From Neelides folsomi (lineage: Eukaryota > Arthropoda > Collembola > Neelipleona > Neelidae), in NCBI GenBank assembly GCA_034687125.1, contig JAQGBZ010000315.1, positions 1 through 64,000 of the forward strand: a stretch of DNA of 64,000 nucleotides. The letters are read 5' to 3'. Positions 7,601-64,000 of this stretch are shown here, piece after piece. Both the position numbers and the translations under genes were made by a program. The number at the start of each line of letters is the position of its first letter. The stretch's first letter is position 1. Under the pieces are notes generated by a model. It did not search any database and was not told where the DNA came from. It saw only the letters and a list, made by a program, of their open reading frames with translations.

Positions 7601-10566
7601 GCTTATAACATGAATGTGCTTGTAAGAGCATGAAAAACATGGAAGATATTGGGTCTTGTGAAAAACTAACAAAGGAAGATTTTTTTAATATAAAGCGAAT
7701 TTAAAATTAATTGGATATTTAAATTCTCTCCGTTTTCCCAATAGATGATGGTCCTTTTAAGATTCCTTGTGTATTATGCCGTGCCGTTGTTCTTCATAGC
7801 TACTTTTTACATCATCATGGCCCGCCATTTGGTTCTCTCCACTATGAACATGCCGGGAGAGCAGGGAGGACAAGCCAAGCAGATCCAAGCACGCAAAAAG
7901 GTATGTTGTTTTCTATGTGCGCTCCTTTCAACTATTTTACCAGAAGATCAAGAGAAACTCTCACAAATACACACAGACTAGACACATGCACATTTACCAA
8001 ACAGTGCTGTTGTGAAGGAATGTTTATTTTCTCAAAGACCTCCATGAGACTCAATGAGGAATAATATGAGGTTCATTAAACAAATAGAAATTGAGAAACA
8101 TTAATTCATTTTCTCTTTATACACTTTCTATATTTATTGGTTTTCATCTATACTTATTTTCATATATTCTATATATTTTCTCCATTTTAGCATTTTTAAT
8201 GTAGGCAAGAATATTTGTATAAAGATTGTAAAAGGAATTTACTAAAAAATTGAAAATTTATAAGAATTTTTTCATGCAGATAAAAAAAGAAATGGTTTTT
8301 TATCAATTTGATTTTAATAGGAAAAGCCGATTAGGATTTCATGAAATTTTTTTGAGTGAAATATAAATTATAGGGGAAGTGGTGAGTTTGTATAATTTTT
8401 TTCAATCTTGTTTGAAGGTTGCCAAAATGGTTCTGAGCTTCGTCGTCATCTTCGCTCTCTGCTTCTTCCCGAGTCAGATCTTCGCCCTCTGGTTCTACTT
8501 TGATCCGAATTCTGAGAAGAACTTCAACGAGGTTTGGAACGTTGTGCGAATTTTGGGATTCTGCCTCGGGTTCACCAACAGTTGCATCAATCCAATTACT
8601 CTCTACTGTGTCAGCGGAACTTTCAGGAAGGTGAGATACAATTTAAAATAATAATTCAATGTAATATAAATATGTAAATATTACTTTATATATGTCACAA
8701 ATGCCAGAATTTATGATCCATATATACTTTTATCCTGATATAACTTTAAAATACTGATAAATAATTACACTAGTACTTTACATGTATGGAGAAATACTCG
8801 CCTTACTACCAATTCAATATCTGGTAAAGTATACCAGATATTGAAAATTGAAAATACTGATATTTACTTTATCCAAGCATTAATATTATACTATATTTTC
8901 ATATTTAATATAGTCTTCTATGTCAAATTGCATTAAAAGCAGTATTAGAGAATTTCTAATTCATTTGAGGACTTGAAACTTGAATGTCAAGAGGAAATTA
9001 CATTTGCCTCAACTCCATTAATAATTAGGAATTTATCATTTCAAATCCTCGAGGGTAATGAGATTTTGATGCTTATGATGCTATACATTTACCACCAGTG
9101 AAAATCTAGAGTATATTGATTGAACAATCAAATTATGGTTTTTTAGTATTACATCTATACTATAGGTAAAGATATTTCATAATTAAAACAAGTACAGACA
9201 TTCACTATTAAACTATAATATGCTTCTTATAATGTTACAACTGAAGCTATTATCATTGATATAATACACATACATTATAATACATTGTATTGTTGTTGGT
9301 AGCTTATTACTTTATTAGCTTATTATATTTAATATTTTATCATACCTTGAAAGTCATCTAAAAGTGAACATAAGCTGATGTGTAAAGTGAGCAGAAGAAG
9401 TTCTAGTAAGTGCCAGGCGTCGATTCAATCCCACAACGAGCAGATTCCTTTGAACTTGTAAAGCAAGAAATATTGTTTGGAAAAGGACCAAGTATAGATT
9501 TAAGAAATAAAGAGGGATATAATTCCCAACTCATTACAAGAAACAAGACTGGAAATGTTGAATCAATTCATTTTAATTAAAATTTAGTGAGGTCATGTGC
9601 GTGGTGAAGGCCCAATAACTTCATCATGAAGGTGACGGGGACTTTCTTTGTTTTCCAACACTTCGATTGAAAGAAGGAGACGTTTGATGAAAATTCTTTG
9701 GGGTGGCCGGAGGGGATCAATTCCCATAGTCTTTTTCAAGTGCTAACTTACACTTAATAGCTTACCGTTCAATTTACTCCCTGATTTATGTCTCGACCCT
9801 TTTTTGACACGAAATCCCTTCATATATTATTAAGACTTTTGCTCCCTTCTTTGGCATGTTCACACGAGAAAATTCACATCGGAGAAAAACTCTTTTCCAA
9901 CTAATAAAATTCCCAATATCTAAATGTTTCTTATTCTTTATAGCTTTGAATTCAGAGTTTTTGACTATAAATTCTCATATAGAATTATTCCTATACGGTA
10001 ACATGCTATACCTAAATTCAATTCTAGAGTTTAAATACAAGGTTAGTTTAAATTTATATTCTTTATAAGGATTAATTTTAGGATTTATTCTCCTCAATAA
10101 TTTCTAATATAAAAGCGCCAAGGGTTTAAAAGGGTCGTGTTCTTTAAAATCATAATTGTCTGGATTGAATTTCAAGTGCGATAAATAAACTTTGGCTAAA
10201 TTGAAAATAACCATTATGATAAAAAAATGGTATTTGTTTCAGCACTTCAACGCTAAGCTGTTTTGCTGTTGCCCTTGCGTGGGACGGGTCCGTCGTCGAG
10301 GTATGAACGGGGGCGTGAGTGAGGGCGGGAATGGCGGGCTAATTTGTGGCTGTGCCACGCTTAGCAACGCCGGCCACGTCTACGGCGAACAAATCCCCAT
10401 GAGAGATTTGTGCAGGAATGCCGGGCATAGTGGAAACCAGCGGAGGAAATACACATGGGAGTCCCAATCCACGAATGCAACCTCCCAACACAACATCCAC
10501 TTGGCTCTGACGAACCTTCCCGCAACACAACCAACAACCCGCCAAGAGCCAAACAATTTCGCATAG
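4676..10566 (+). CDS. CCHa1-R: CCHamide-1 receptor, class A neuropeptide GPCR, 8 exons, 473 aa
   Basis: Rhodopsin-family receptor of the bombesin-receptor-like arthropod CCHamide group, expected in the plasma membrane of neurons or endocrine cells and signalling through a G protein. Exons: 4676-4983, 5571-5637, 5855-5882, 6042-6212, 6990-7144, 7745-7900, 8418-8630, 10243-10566. All phases agree and the sum is 474 codons. Visible hallmarks: N-terminal sequon (QNISF), TM1 with [19 protein letters not shown]2 with [13 protein letters not shown]1 with ESWPYG, TM3 cysteine (CKF) and [10 protein letters not shown] (DRY), ECL2 cysteine (EVCYP), TM6 with CFFPSQ, TM7 with NPITLY (NPxxY), and a CCCPC cluster suited to palmitoylation after helix 8. 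Exon 3 is only 28 bases. The donor after exon 5 (GTCGTC) is weak, so that junction is less sure. The intron before exon 8 is 1.6 kb. The first ATG follows an in-frame upstream stop-rich region. Confidence 0.93.
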
Positions 10567-57720: not shown

Positions 57721-59060
57721 ATGGCAAGTTATAATCCTTCACTCGGTCGCTATGCCAAGACCCGAATGACCAAAACAAAGAAGAGGAGCACAAAGTATGA
57801 AGTTGAGTCAGTGGGTCTTTCTTATCCCCAAATGTACGAGAATGTTCATCAGCCTTATTATCCTGGACCAGAAGTTCAACAAGACTACATTTCCCCAAAT
57901 GGTCAATCGCAAGCATGGACTTCTGTTCCTCCTCTTAATTGTAATTAAAAATCCAAAATCATTTCATTTATCTTATATTAATAAAACTAAAATTAAAAAT
58001 AATATTGATTTCATAAAATTGTAATTAATTACAATAAATTGTTTTCAAAGATGGGCGAGGTCAACAACCAGTTGGAAACCGCGGCCCGGCTTGGATCCCC
58101 CTTCAAATGTCAATTGAGAATATGAAGAATATGTTTTCTGGCGGGATGAAGGGACATGTTCCAAATCTCAAGAGTCGCTATGTCCGATCTAAACCTCAAC
58201 AACCCCCGCGAGCGCGCTACTACCACCATGACGAAAAACGGAAAGTTGTTTTCAAAGACGAGCTCGACGGGCGATTCTCCAAGCTCGTATCAATGAATCC
58301 CTTCGGCAACTCCAAACCTCTCGTAATCGTCGAAGGCGAATCGGGGAATTTTATGAACGAGGAAAAAGAACCGAGTTGGATTGTCCCACCACCAGACAAG
58401 CGTGGCTATGAATACAGTAGATATGAAGAAAGGGAAGAAATTCATCCTGGTCCTCGTTCTTCAGATGAACATGAACCAGTCGAAGAACCAATTTCAAATA
58501 CTCCACAATTGCAGCAATATCCTCCGATTCCGAATAACTACAACATGAGCAATAATATGAATATGGGGAACAAAATGAACAATAGGAACTATGACATGAA
58601 CAACACAAACAATGATACGAATAACACGAACAATGACATGAACAATAGGAATAATGCCACAAACAACGCCATGGACAAAGATGAGCGAAGAACGAACAAT
58701 TATATGGACAATAACATGAATATCAGTAATTTGCCAATCGAACAACGAAAGGAAGTTCAACAAGTACAGTGTATCGAAGAACAAAGTTCCATCATTGAAG
58801 CTGAAAATGAACAGGAGCAATATTCAAGTGAAGGGGAAAGTTCCGATGACCATGAACAAATTAAAAAAGCTCCTTCTTTTCATTCTAAGAAAATCGGGCC
58901 GGATGAAATTTTCGTAAAGAATCACAAAACCATTTCAACCATGACGGAGAAGATAGGAACCTGCAAGGAGAAGAGGAAAAACGAACCAAAGCGATTGTAC
59001 ATAAGGGAATCTTCGGAGACACATTTCGTATTTGGCCCTGCCCAAATAATAATCTTATAA
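57721..59060 (+). CDS. Basic, Asn-rich low-complexity protein of unknown function, 409 aa
   Basis: Exons 57721-57940 and 58051-59060 joined in phase 1 (410 codons). The N-terminus is basic and Tyr-rich (YNPSLGRYAKTRMTKTKKRS). The middle contains PFGNSKPLVIVEGESGNF and WIVPPPDKRGYEYSRYEERE. Then comes a run of MNN-type repeats (NYNMSNNMNMGNKMNNRNYD and so on, about residues 220-275), a Glu/Ser-rich acidic stretch and a basic C-terminus ending PAQIIIL, which could be a PDZ-type ligand. There is no signal peptide or membrane helix. Local GC is higher than the surroundings, and coding is supported by the long intact second exon. I do not recognise a family; the C-terminal segment from KKAPSFHSKK to the end looks most ordered. 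Confidence 0.7.
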
Positions 59061-59591: not shown

Positions 59592-62500
59592 TCAAGGGCT
59601 TTTGATGGGAGAAACGATGAGTCGCCCAGTCAAATGTCTCGTAGAATCAGGGATAAAACGCTGAAGCAATGATGTCAATTGGTAAAGTGAAGTTTCAATC
59701 CCCTGTGGCAAATTCCTGATCATCCAAACTCGTCGATATTCTTCAATGACCATCAGAAGCCTATTTAATGAGAATGAGTAATATTAAATATATTAATAAG
59801 ATGAATGAAAAAACATAAATAAATTGTGGCTCAAAATATAAATTGAAAAATATTTATCAAGATACTTAAATGAAATTCTAAAATTGAATAATAGGAAAAC
59901 GAAGTAATGTAAAAATACAAAGTAGTTGTAGTTAAAAGTATAAATTGTATAGGGATAAACAATACAAATAATTACTTATTAGCAATATCCGTCCTTAATG
60001 TGGGTGGAAGATTAGAAATCCCAAGATTGACAACTTGAAGTCCCAAATTGCTTCGTGGATTTACTCCAGCTCCAACTAAACATCGTCCAATTCTGAAATG
60101 TAAAATACAATCTTGAAAAATTATTACCCAACAATTAAGTATATTGAGGATTTATTTACCTATTGGTAAAAAATAAATATTATTATTGTGATATTTATTC
60201 CTTATATTTGAGTGATTAAATGTTAAACCTTGAAGCTAAAAGGAACATTTCCATTGTAAGGCCGATCTCATCCAAATACTCCGCGTGTTCTTCCTTCCAT
60301 TCTGACCCATTCAATGCACTTTGGCATTTCTTTACACTTCTCAAGCATTTCTATAAAAATTAACAATCCAAGTCAGTAAAATAATCACATTATAATTTAT
60401 ATTAAGTTACACATATCCAACTTGGTTTATAAACTTTATAGTAACAGTTTAAAGTCATACAATGAAAGAATCCACAGTGAGATGATCCAGTGGAATTGAG
60501 TCTGGATGAGTGAGAAGTCGATAAAGAGTCGTCCCTTCGGAAGACGGCAAATTACTCATATCATTTGCTTCCTGATTGAGTGATTGTCTCAAAAGCGTCG
60601 TTTCAGCACATCCAAGATCGATTATCACTTGGCCCAAAATCCCACTTCGATCCCCTAATACATGCAAACTCAAAAGACTTGCAAGGGAATTTTGAAGATA
60701 TTCCTACAAAAGGGAAATATAATGAAGCCATTAACTTTACATATATATTGTGAATCAAATATTAATTAAAATACATTAATTTTTAATTGAATTTAGTTAT
60801 AATAACTAACCCAGTGCGTATTTTTGTTCCAAGCCAGACCAGCCGATAAAAGAAATCCAGGCCAAGCGAACAACATTGGTGTCAGACTATTCACTCCAGT
60901 CCAATGAGCAACAATCAAACCAAGAGAGGAGTTATACGAGGCAGCGAGAATTGCTTGATAAATATTTGATAAAGCAGCTTCAGGGCACCCAGACTTTTTA
61001 TAAATCATTTAATTAAAACAATTTCATTTCAGAACATGGATAGTTATTAAATTAAATATACAAGAGTATGTTTTATTAAATTTTATATATTAACTCACAA
61101 GACTAGACCAGGCACTAGTTCCAGCACATAAGACAGTTCCAAGTCCATTTTCTCTTAATTCGCGAATTCCATCACCAAAATTGTAATCACCCTTTATAAA
61201 ATAAAGTCATAAAAGTTAATTGTTAATTGGAGTACAAATTTCATTTAATATTATTGATTTGTAATTAATGAGTGAAAATTATTTGTAATTAATGAGTGAA
61301 AATTTACCCTAAACCCATATTGAACTAAAATGACATTTGGAGGGAGTGTGAGAAGAGCTGAATGAGCATTTCCAGCATTTGAACAGAGAAAGACCATGGA
61401 ATGAGCGGGGGATGAGAAAGGAATTAATTCCCAAAGAAGTGACCAATCACCGGACTCAACGCTGTGTGAACTGAAGATCAATTTGCTCAATTGAGGACCA
61501 AGGTGGATGAATCTAATAAACAAAATTAAATGAAAAACTGTTTACTTAATAAATAGTTTCATAAAATTAAATATTTACTTTGATGAAGGGAATGAAAGCA
61601 GAATTGTCGAAAGCACCGGTTTCACTTCCTCAATAAAGTCCAAAATGGAAATTTCATGAGAAATGTCAATCGCCGGGACGAGTGTAATTGAAAGATCCGA
61701 ACAGTGACGATCAATTGCCAATAGTTCACTATTAGATAAATTAAAAAACATAATTATTGTTCATATCCATATTAATTAGACTAAACATAATTTTATATTA
61801 TAAATATAACATAACATATTAAAATCTGAAATAATTGGAATTAGCTAAAATATAATCTTACGCATTTGTATAATAAATTGGTGGTTTTGAACTTTTTGTG
61901 TCAAATCTCATTTGAAAATGTATAAAATTGATTTTGAGATGTGATAAAGTGCGAATGACGTCGAAGAGACTTTCCTATAAAAGCAATTACAATTTAATTG
62001 ATTGTAATTGACTATAATGCTGTTTATACTTAAAGGTAATCTAGATCGTTTATTATAGTTGTGATCTTTTATAATATCTTAAAAATGACATAGCTTACAA
62101 TATTAGGGATTCGTTCTTGAGAAACGTCAATAAGAACTGCTCTGTGATGTAAAGATGGGGAATCTTCAATGAGAACTGGTGGAATTCCACCGGACGGTCC
62201 GTAGAGCGACAATAGTTGAATGAAAGTACAAATGGCATAATACAATCCTTCAATGTCACTTCCAACAATGTTCACCTACAAATACATTGCAAAAATAAAA
62301 GAATTAAACCTTTACGAAATTACGATTAATTATTCAAACAAAAGCCTATATTGACAATCTAAATAATTTATTAAAAATTAATTTTTAATGGTATTTTTAT
62401 AATTAACCACGACCTTATTGCTTGTTATATGAAGTTTATATGAGCCAGGTCCACCAAGAACTGAACTTTGGTTTACAGTGGCGTAAATTAGACTAGCTGG

Positions 62501-64000
62501 AGAGGAAGGAACAACTTTTGAAGAAATTTCAACTCCTTGGGCACTCACTTCATAACCCAACTTTAAGAAATTCTCTTTGTGAACGCCAAAAACATCCAAG
62601 ATTCTAAAAGTCAAAAGGAAAATTAAAATCATATAAACTAACACAAATCTGCTCCCCAATGAATGCAATGTAGTGTTTTTACATTAAATAGTATCTTATT
62701 TTATTATTTAATTGTAGATAAATTTTTATACTTGTGTAGCGGAGTTGGTGAAGGGAGAACAGAAAGGTGAAAGAGCTTTTGTGGACGAAATTGAAGGCCT
62801 TCGAGCTGCCGCAAAGACCGTGGCTGAGGCCAAAGAAGGTTCAATTGACCATCTGTGATCAAAGGCGAAATCGGAGCTTTGAGTTCAAATCCTCTTATTG
62901 TGCTTTCCAAACCCTTAATTAAATCAATAGAATTTCATTGTAGAATCTCATAATCTTCCATGGCAATCTAATAGTTTAATTTTTAATAATCAAAACAAAA
63001 CATGGCATTTATTGAATCAAGAGATCACTTACATTAAAACCAGAAAATAAAATCGGAGGTGAAATGGGTCCTCCGTTCAAATTCAAATTGACTGGCGACG
63101 AAAGTAGCGATTCTAGTGACGATGTTTGCCGATTACGCTTTTTGAATTCAGAAGCGAGAAATCTACTCATCAATGAAAAAATCTCGGCTTTTCCACTTTG
63201 TGCGGCCAAATCAAGAGGGGATTCTTCACCAAACTTCCTATATAAAAATTAAATAAGATCAACTTGAGTTTAGTAAATATTTGATTTGATATAGAAAATT
63301 TTAACTAATGATTTACCCTTTATGAGCCTTGATCAAAGGAGAAGCCTTGGCTTTTAGCAATTCTTGAATAATTTCAATGTCTCCTCTTTCAACAGCATCG
63401 TGTAACGGAGTGACTCCTATCAATTAAAAATAATAAGTAAAATACCAAAATAATTTTAAATGTCCTTAAATCGCAATTTTATAATACCCTCAGAAGTTTC
63501 AGCCTCAACATCAGCACCTTTATCTACAAAATAAGCCATTTTAAACTCATTAGGAAAATGCTAAAATATTTCAAAAACTAAATCCAAAATATTATTAATT
63601 ATTAGAAAAATGTTGTATGAAGACTAATGGATTACCAATCAAGAATTTAACTGTAGCTAGATTTGCGAAAGACACAGCCCAATGAAGAACAGAATTTTTC
63701 TTTTCCTCACAATCATAAGAATTGAGTTCAACTCCGGCTTTAATTAATTCTTCCATACGACGAATACTAAAAAACATTTATAGCCAAATCAAATCTTAAT
63801 AACCTATGAGCATAATAAAAATTAATTAATTTTTAATGATAAAATAAATTTACTCATTGGCTGCAGTGGCACGGAGAAGTTCATCGACATAAACTTGAGT
63901 TGCAGTTTCATTTGAAGCCAATTCCAGAGGAAGTTCTCCTTCTTTATTTTCAAGTGTCACGTCTGCCCCTGCCATCAGAAGCGATCTCATCAAATCCAAT
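59592..64000 (-). CDS. Ankyrin repeats fused to hexosaminidase-D-like GH20 domain, catalytic pair absent; 5' partial
   Basis: Seventeen in-window exons in consistent phase: 63854-64000, 63636-63766, 63488-63523, 63317-63416, 63033-63237, 62732-62913, 62408-62603, 62099-62275, 61862-61974, 61579-61728, 61308-61512, 61099-61191, 60811-60993, 60461-60703, 60229-60350, 59976-60092, 59592-59760; about 855 residues, with the start beyond the window. The N-terminal part is ankyrin repeats (LMAGADVTLENKEGELPLEL, SVLHWAVSFANLATVKFLI, GVTPLHDAVERGDIEIIQEL, ESPLDLAAQSGKAEIFSLM). The rest follows GH20: SNKVVVNIVGSDIEGLYYAI (small domain), HHRAVLIDVSQERIPN, LKINFIHFQMR, ITLVPAID, and a hexosaminidase-D-like body with SLGLIVAHWTGVNSLTPMLF. 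Where active enzymes have H-x-G-x-D-E, this reads HLGPQL, so the Asp-Glu pair is gone. There is no signal peptide in view; probably a cytosolic, non-catalytic protein. Confidence 0.82.

Follow-up and report, generated by a model that had tools for sequence, protein, structure and literature searches.

At one end of the 64,000-nt stretch of Neelides folsomi DNA analysed here (the window), exons on the minus strand read from ankyrin repeats into a module of the family 20 glycosylhydrolases (GH20). This raises the questions of whether these exons form one gene, whether the GH20 module could still be an enzyme, and what role the product would play in the cell. An earlier note on this DNA called the layout undescribed; in the open-licence literature, judged by titles and abstract openings, we found no paper on an ankyrin-GH20 protein. 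Pseudoenzymes of another family, GH18, are known from arthropods (PMC7414880). The reading that we prefer, with a probability of roughly 0.66, is that a single gene encodes a 914-aa, probably cytosolic fusion of ankyrin repeats with a GH20 pseudoenzyme, which works as a scaffold or adaptor. If this is true, the joining of a GH20 pseudoenzyme to protein-binding repeats would represent a new route from a glycosidase fold to a scaffold or reader. The skew of residue loss toward the active-site face described below is a testable signature of function change.

Gene structure and coding evidence

Within the window, the gene occupies positions 64000 to 59592 of the minus strand, where 17 exons join into a single open frame of 853 codons plus a stop and every border has a GT donor or an AG acceptor. 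The contig beyond the window edge (assembly of 75.1 Mb in 840 contigs) supplies exon 1 and the rest of exon 2, whose full span is 64094-63854, and the complete gene consists of 18 exons with an ATG start, no internal stop and a product of 914 amino acids. Searches of the assembly gave 39 Chitin_bind_4 matches, as fits an arthropod, and no Col_cuticle_N match, the latter in a search run without a positive control. The exons, all on the minus strand, are as follows, with the supporting evidence in brackets.

64371-64284 (contig numbering), minus strand: exon 1, outside the window
63854-64000 (to 64094 on the contig), minus strand: exon 2, 3' part in the window, ankyrin repeat region, LDLMRSLLMAGADV (frame, Pfam ankyrin)
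63636-63766, minus strand: exon 3, ankyrin repeats, SVLHWAV (frame, Pfam, codon score)
63488-63523, minus strand: exon 4, ankyrin, 36 nt (frame, codon score)
63317-63416, minus strand: exon 5, ankyrin repeat, TPLHDAV (frame, Pfam, codon score)
63033-63237, minus strand: exon 6, final ankyrin-like repeat, SPLDLAA, and linker, followed by the donor GTAAGT (frame, codon score)
62732-62913, minus strand: exon 7, remaining linker and beginning of domain 20b, LNLLWPQP, no in-frame ATG (frame, family profile, codon score)
62414-62603, minus strand: exon 8, domain 20b (frame, Pfam, family profile)
62099-62275, minus strand: exon 9, end of 20b and barrel strand 1, HHRAVLIDV (frame, PDB sequence matches, family profile)
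61862-61974, minus strand: exon 10, barrel strand 2, INFIHFQMRFD, containing residue 472, the earliest Met in the GH20 part (frame)
61579-61728, minus strand: exon 11, barrel strand 3, LVPAIDISHE, up to the beginning of strand 4 (frame, alignment)
61308-61512, minus strand: exon 12, strand 4 region, FIHLGPQLSKL (family: NVGCDET), and strands 5 and 6, MVFLCSN and VQYGF (frame, alignment, conservation)
61099-61191, minus strand: exon 13, strand 7, CAGTSAWSS (frame, family profile)
60811-60993, minus strand: exon 14, strand 8, IVAHWTGV, and barrel end (frame, family profile)
60461-60703, minus strand: exon 15, helical C-terminal domain (frame, family profile)
60229-60350, minus strand: exon 16, helical C-terminal domain (frame, family profile)
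59976-60092, minus strand: exon 17, helical C-terminal domain (frame, family profile)
59592-59760, minus strand: exon 18, end of the helical C-terminal domain, VWMIRN, and stop codon (frame, family profile)

A codon model that penalised stops, trained on 2205 codons from other genes in this genome (nine of ten training pieces, the tenth lacking an open frame), ranked the chosen frame first among the three in all 17 of the 17 exons in the window. GC content was 19% in the introns versus 30-47% in the exons, and the 16 introns inside the window were each 66-215 nt long. Tail to tail with this gene lies a plus-strand open frame of 340 residues (window 58038-59060) with an asparagine-rich stretch of NN/MN repeats.

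Domain content and family placement

Pfam found tandem ankyrin repeats well over the cut-off (Ank_2, 1.1e-15; 58.3 bits versus a cut-off of 27.3), which makes the product an ankyrin-repeat protein. Glyco_hydro_20b also exceeded its cut-off (2.7e-7), the Glyco_hydro_20 barrel was matched only below it (0.39), and an NCBIfam search gave matches only under the cut-off. Among PDB sequence matches to the GH20 part, GH20 enzymes were on top, mostly across 20b and the first strands.

Using a 328-aa GH20 query, tblastn against plasmids retrieved a haloarchaeal family 20 glycosylhydrolase (95% coverage, 8e-19), the first full-length relative. The same part found no relative in the genome contig collection; phage tblastn gave 11 partial matches, none reaching 80% coverage, and a family search of viral contigs found no member. 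Starting from two copies in the haloarchaeal organism, we confirmed 378 relatives in prokaryote genomes and retained the best 80, which together with two plasmid proteins form the family set of 82 on whose choice the conservation counts below depend. The profile built from this set (the best 80 of 378 plus two) scored the arthropod part at 193.5 bits, whereas the top of 500 shuffled controls reached 2.3 bits. This score and the Glyco_hydro_20b match place the protein in the GH20 sequence family. By BLASTP (E<=1e-3) the GH20 part matched 82 of 82 members (again the best 80 of 378 plus two). Identity with the closest relatives found was 22-25%. The profile match is full length, made up of two local matches, one from 20b to strand 3 and one from strand 6 to the helical C-terminal domain, which leave the strand 3-strand 6 stretch uncovered; this stretch is about 40 residues shorter in the fusion protein (85 residues vs 127 profile positions).

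In a tree of 33 rows, including 29 of the 82 family members, the fusion protein grouped with the prokaryotic family and apart from hexosaminidase D (HexD) with support of 97/99; its branch, with a length of 10, is saturated and was flagged as unsure by the program, so that the placement is unsure and does not demonstrate lateral transfer. An own-genome search with P0002 revealed no second subfamily member; the weak matches that it gave fell on other GH20 genes and on a single exon of the fusion gene. Judged by sequence, the GH20 part belongs to a prokaryotic 20b-GH20-helical subfamily, which these searches found only in prokaryotes.

The earlier note had described the fold as hexosaminidase-D-like. 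This description did not survive comparison: a two-sequence profile of the HexD genes of the same genome (L036 and L038) gave no match to the fusion protein, against 193.5 bits with the prokaryotic subfamily, and BLASTP gave none either; HexD identity was rejected. A MAFFT alignment of the fusion protein with the HexD pair alone was of too poor quality for use.

PMC2492878 argues that eukaryotes acquired GH20 twice, and that the second acquisition sits within a clade made up largely of Firmicutes, alongside Chloroflexi, Verrucomicrobia and archaea. It is conceivable, though rather improbable, that the gene described here represents a third kind of GH20 taken up by animals from prokaryotes besides those two, which in this arthropod line was joined to ankyrin repeats and became a cytosolic adaptor, or a reader of beta-GlcNAc marks, without catalytic function.

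Catalytic loop

The sequence KFIHLGPQLSKL is present at residues 538-549 of the fusion protein, at the place where, according to the earlier note, GH20 enzymes have H-x-G-x-D-E. The sequence is there and Asp-Glu is gone, but the alignment is less certain than claimed. Aligned by eye without gaps, H-L-G of the fusion protein falls on N-V-G of the family and Asp-Glu becomes Gln-Leu; MAFFT and HMMER place H-L-G on the following D/E-L-G and leave the N-V-G-C-D-E stretch deleted or unmatched. Under either alignment, strand 4 is without Asp-Glu. The pair, which follows barrel strand 4 in all 82 prokaryotic members (best 80 of 378 plus two) and by which a GH20 enzyme is recognised, is absent from the fusion protein. 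The proposal that the module is catalytically dead is upheld at the level of sequence, and the best reading of the module is that of a pseudoenzyme.

The same genome contains 11 other GH20 genes (matches grouped by place), nine of which have the H-x-G-x-D-E motif. The remaining two, of the HexA/chitinolytic type, have HMGADDV and HMGGDDV, with Asp replacing Glu; they lie at L037 1410-2408 (G000:C3, about 334,400-335,400) and at L041 about 9373-9531 (G000:C158:29872-30030). With Asp at the acid/base Glu position, these two genes may be inactive or altered. Altered catalytic residues are not unique to the fusion in this genome; both are lost in the fusion only. The genome also has many long open reading frames of ankyrin type scattered through it, the longest running for some 1500 aa with no stop, for example at C682:12450-16385, C756:9084-10739 and C563:3504-22230 of G000, in contrast to the intron-rich fusion gene. 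Elsewhere, a 722-residue open frame on the minus strand (L003 5993-8161) has by eye the look of an ionotropic-receptor-type membrane protein and adjoins a gene further along the contig that, also by eye, is subtilisin-like.

Pattern of residue loss

The reference fold was the predicted structure of a Paenibacillus member (L052; alignment with 22 others of the 82; mean pLDDT 91.2). It places the active-site face in this bacterial member and does not cover the fold of the arthropod protein; the face, defined as strand ends and the loops after them, was drawn by where strands and loops begin and end in the model, not by distances. Columns near-invariant at >=95% in the family set (best 80 of 378 plus two) were split by position. 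The fusion protein retained 14 of 54 near-invariant residues on the face (10 being deleted in the alignment) versus 34 of 55 elsewhere (Fisher p=2e-4). The difference persisted when the threshold was moved to 90% (17/68 versus 42/77) or 98% (9/36 versus 18/26). Outside the face, 7 of 10 residues were retained in 20b, 9 of 11 in the helical domain and 18 of 34 in the barrel, which has there too lost about half of its near-invariant residues. Within the barrel alone, plus three flanking columns, the contrast was weaker (14/54 on the face vs 19/37 in the rest, p=0.016). In the HexD controls L036 and L038 it was reversed (p=0.04 and 0.007, from partial alignments): 16 and 15 of the 54 face residues were retained, against 4 and 2 of the remaining 37. 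The fusion protein thus matches the subfamily profile without sharing most of the subfamily's near-invariant face residues (14/54).

The family residues retained, in L052 numbering, are Arg139 and Asp144, His223, Gly382-Thr383, Trp386 and Trp420, with Arg139 in strand 1 and the His, both Trp and Gly-Thr on the active-site face. Besides Asp-Glu, those lost are Glu176, Asn217-Gln218-Asn219, Trp332, Asp334, Trp355 (replaced by Tyr), Asp419, Asp422 and His425. As computed from these alignments, residue loss is concentrated on the active-site face, and the flanking domains are better preserved.

Proposed role of the fusion protein

The layout runs from N-terminal ankyrin repeats through a linker of about 50-60 residues to the GH20 module, which comprises 20b, the TIM barrel and the helical C-terminal domain. 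Hydropathy revealed no signal peptide or membrane-like stretch (top 19-residue mean 1.37 vs 1.87 in the HexD control L038); therefore, the protein is probably cytosolic. Having dropped Asp-Glu and most face residues, the module would not hydrolyse glycans; its surfaces, together with the ankyrin repeats, would hold protein partners, as the architecture suggests. Since the pocket chemistry is lost while the module and the helical domain are retained, a scaffolding or adaptor role is the simplest reading, and we infer that the fusion protein is expressed and folds.

The earlier note proposed a sugar sensor as well as a scaffold. As a sensor, the dead pocket would bind sugar in the manner of a lectin, for example beta-GlcNAc on cytosolic proteins, with the ankyrin repeats relaying the signal to partners. 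The retained His223, Trp386, Trp420 and Gly382-Thr383 of the face and Arg139 of strand 1 fit such a pocket; the lack of an export signal means that the ligand would have to be cytosolic, and the inactive GH18-derived Idgf proteins show that dead glycosidases are in use in arthropods (PMC7414880). However, most of the near-invariant face residues, including Asp-Glu and all those listed above as lost, have disappeared, and the strand 3-6 stretch is shortened by about 40 residues (85 vs 127 profile positions). We consider this sugar-binding role unlikely, although it survives better than the explanations below.

One gene or two, and intactness

That the 17 phase-consistent exons form one gene, as first proposed, agrees with the open frame, the GT-AG borders and the codon scores in 17 of 17 exons. 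The exon joins were nevertheless read from genomic sequence, and a neighbouring ankyrin gene and a GH20-like gene could have been wrongly merged in the exon model. The acceptor ahead of 62913, TAATTAAG, has no long pyrimidine run, and read-through past the donor at 63033 meets a stop within 24 bases (ORF end at 63009). On the other hand, the 63033|62913 gap is an ordinary intron of 119 nt with matching phase and a size within the range of the other 15 window introns (66-215 nt). In addition, neither exon 7 nor the following two exons contain an in-frame ATG, and the GH20 part lacks any Met ahead of residue 472, which lies within the barrel; the GH20 part therefore needs the upstream exons, and a separate GH20 gene would require an unseen start exon. 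The evidence favours one fusion gene, and a merging of two is decidedly unlikely.

A recent pseudogene, in which the entire gene is decaying and the catalytic losses are meaningless, would be in keeping with the single copy, for which the sequences searched gave no ortholog, and with a divergence so extreme that the closest relatives found share 22-25% identity. In simulations with point changes only, however, redrawing 2% of sites at random broke 92% of 300 copies, and at 5% none of 300 kept its frame, a result that argues against an old pseudogene. With the 914-codon frame and splice borders intact and the losses concentrated on the active-site face, decay of a recent pseudogene is very improbable as well. 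Least probable of all is a functional glycosidase with alternative catalytic residues, for which the Asp and Glu at the end of strand 3 (AIDISHE) might serve as an unusual pair beside the retained His223 and Arg139, given that Asp-Glu follows strand 4 in 82 of 82 relatives (best 80 of 378 plus two) and that, with the exception of Trp420, strands 5, 6 and 8 have altered Trp and acid residues as well.

Comparison with known systems

The prokaryotic subfamily of family 20 glycosylhydrolases aligns full length with the fusion protein through 20b, barrel and helical C-terminal domain (193.5 bits). Its members include Halomontanus rarus WP_276256420.1 (25% identity to the fusion protein) and WP_276256663.1, and others from Paenibacillus, Chloroflexota and Verrucomicrobiota. 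The subfamily keeps Asp-Glu in 82 of 82 members examined (best 80 of 378 plus two), whereas the fusion protein has lost the active site; and no ankyrin family appeared among the Pfam matches of the matched stretches in the 23 of 82 checked, whereas the fusion protein carries ankyrin repeats. Among solved folds, two bacterial GH20 enzymes, GH20C of Streptococcus pneumoniae (5a6b, Z 36.2) and GcnA of S. gordonii (2epo, Z 34.0), scored best by Z for the bacterial member L052; the fold comparison of L052 was used for these two enzymes only, and they were compared with this bacterial model, not with the arthropod protein.

The HexD genes L036 and L038 are GH20 genes like the fusion gene and score 52.6 and 41.9 bits against the prokaryotic family profile. 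They retain Asp-Glu, unlike the fusion protein; no 20b domain was noticed in them by eye, whereas the fusion protein has one, and L038 carries an N-terminal membrane-like stretch that the fusion protein lacks by hydropathy. The two genes presumably correspond to the 'Eukaryote clade B' that PMC2492878 has for metazoans.

The arthropod Idgf proteins belong to GH18 and the fusion protein to GH20, and to our knowledge Idgf proteins have no ankyrin repeats. The likeness lies in the preservation of a dead glycosidase fold in an arthropod, which the inactive Idgf proteins (PMC7414880) share with the fusion protein.
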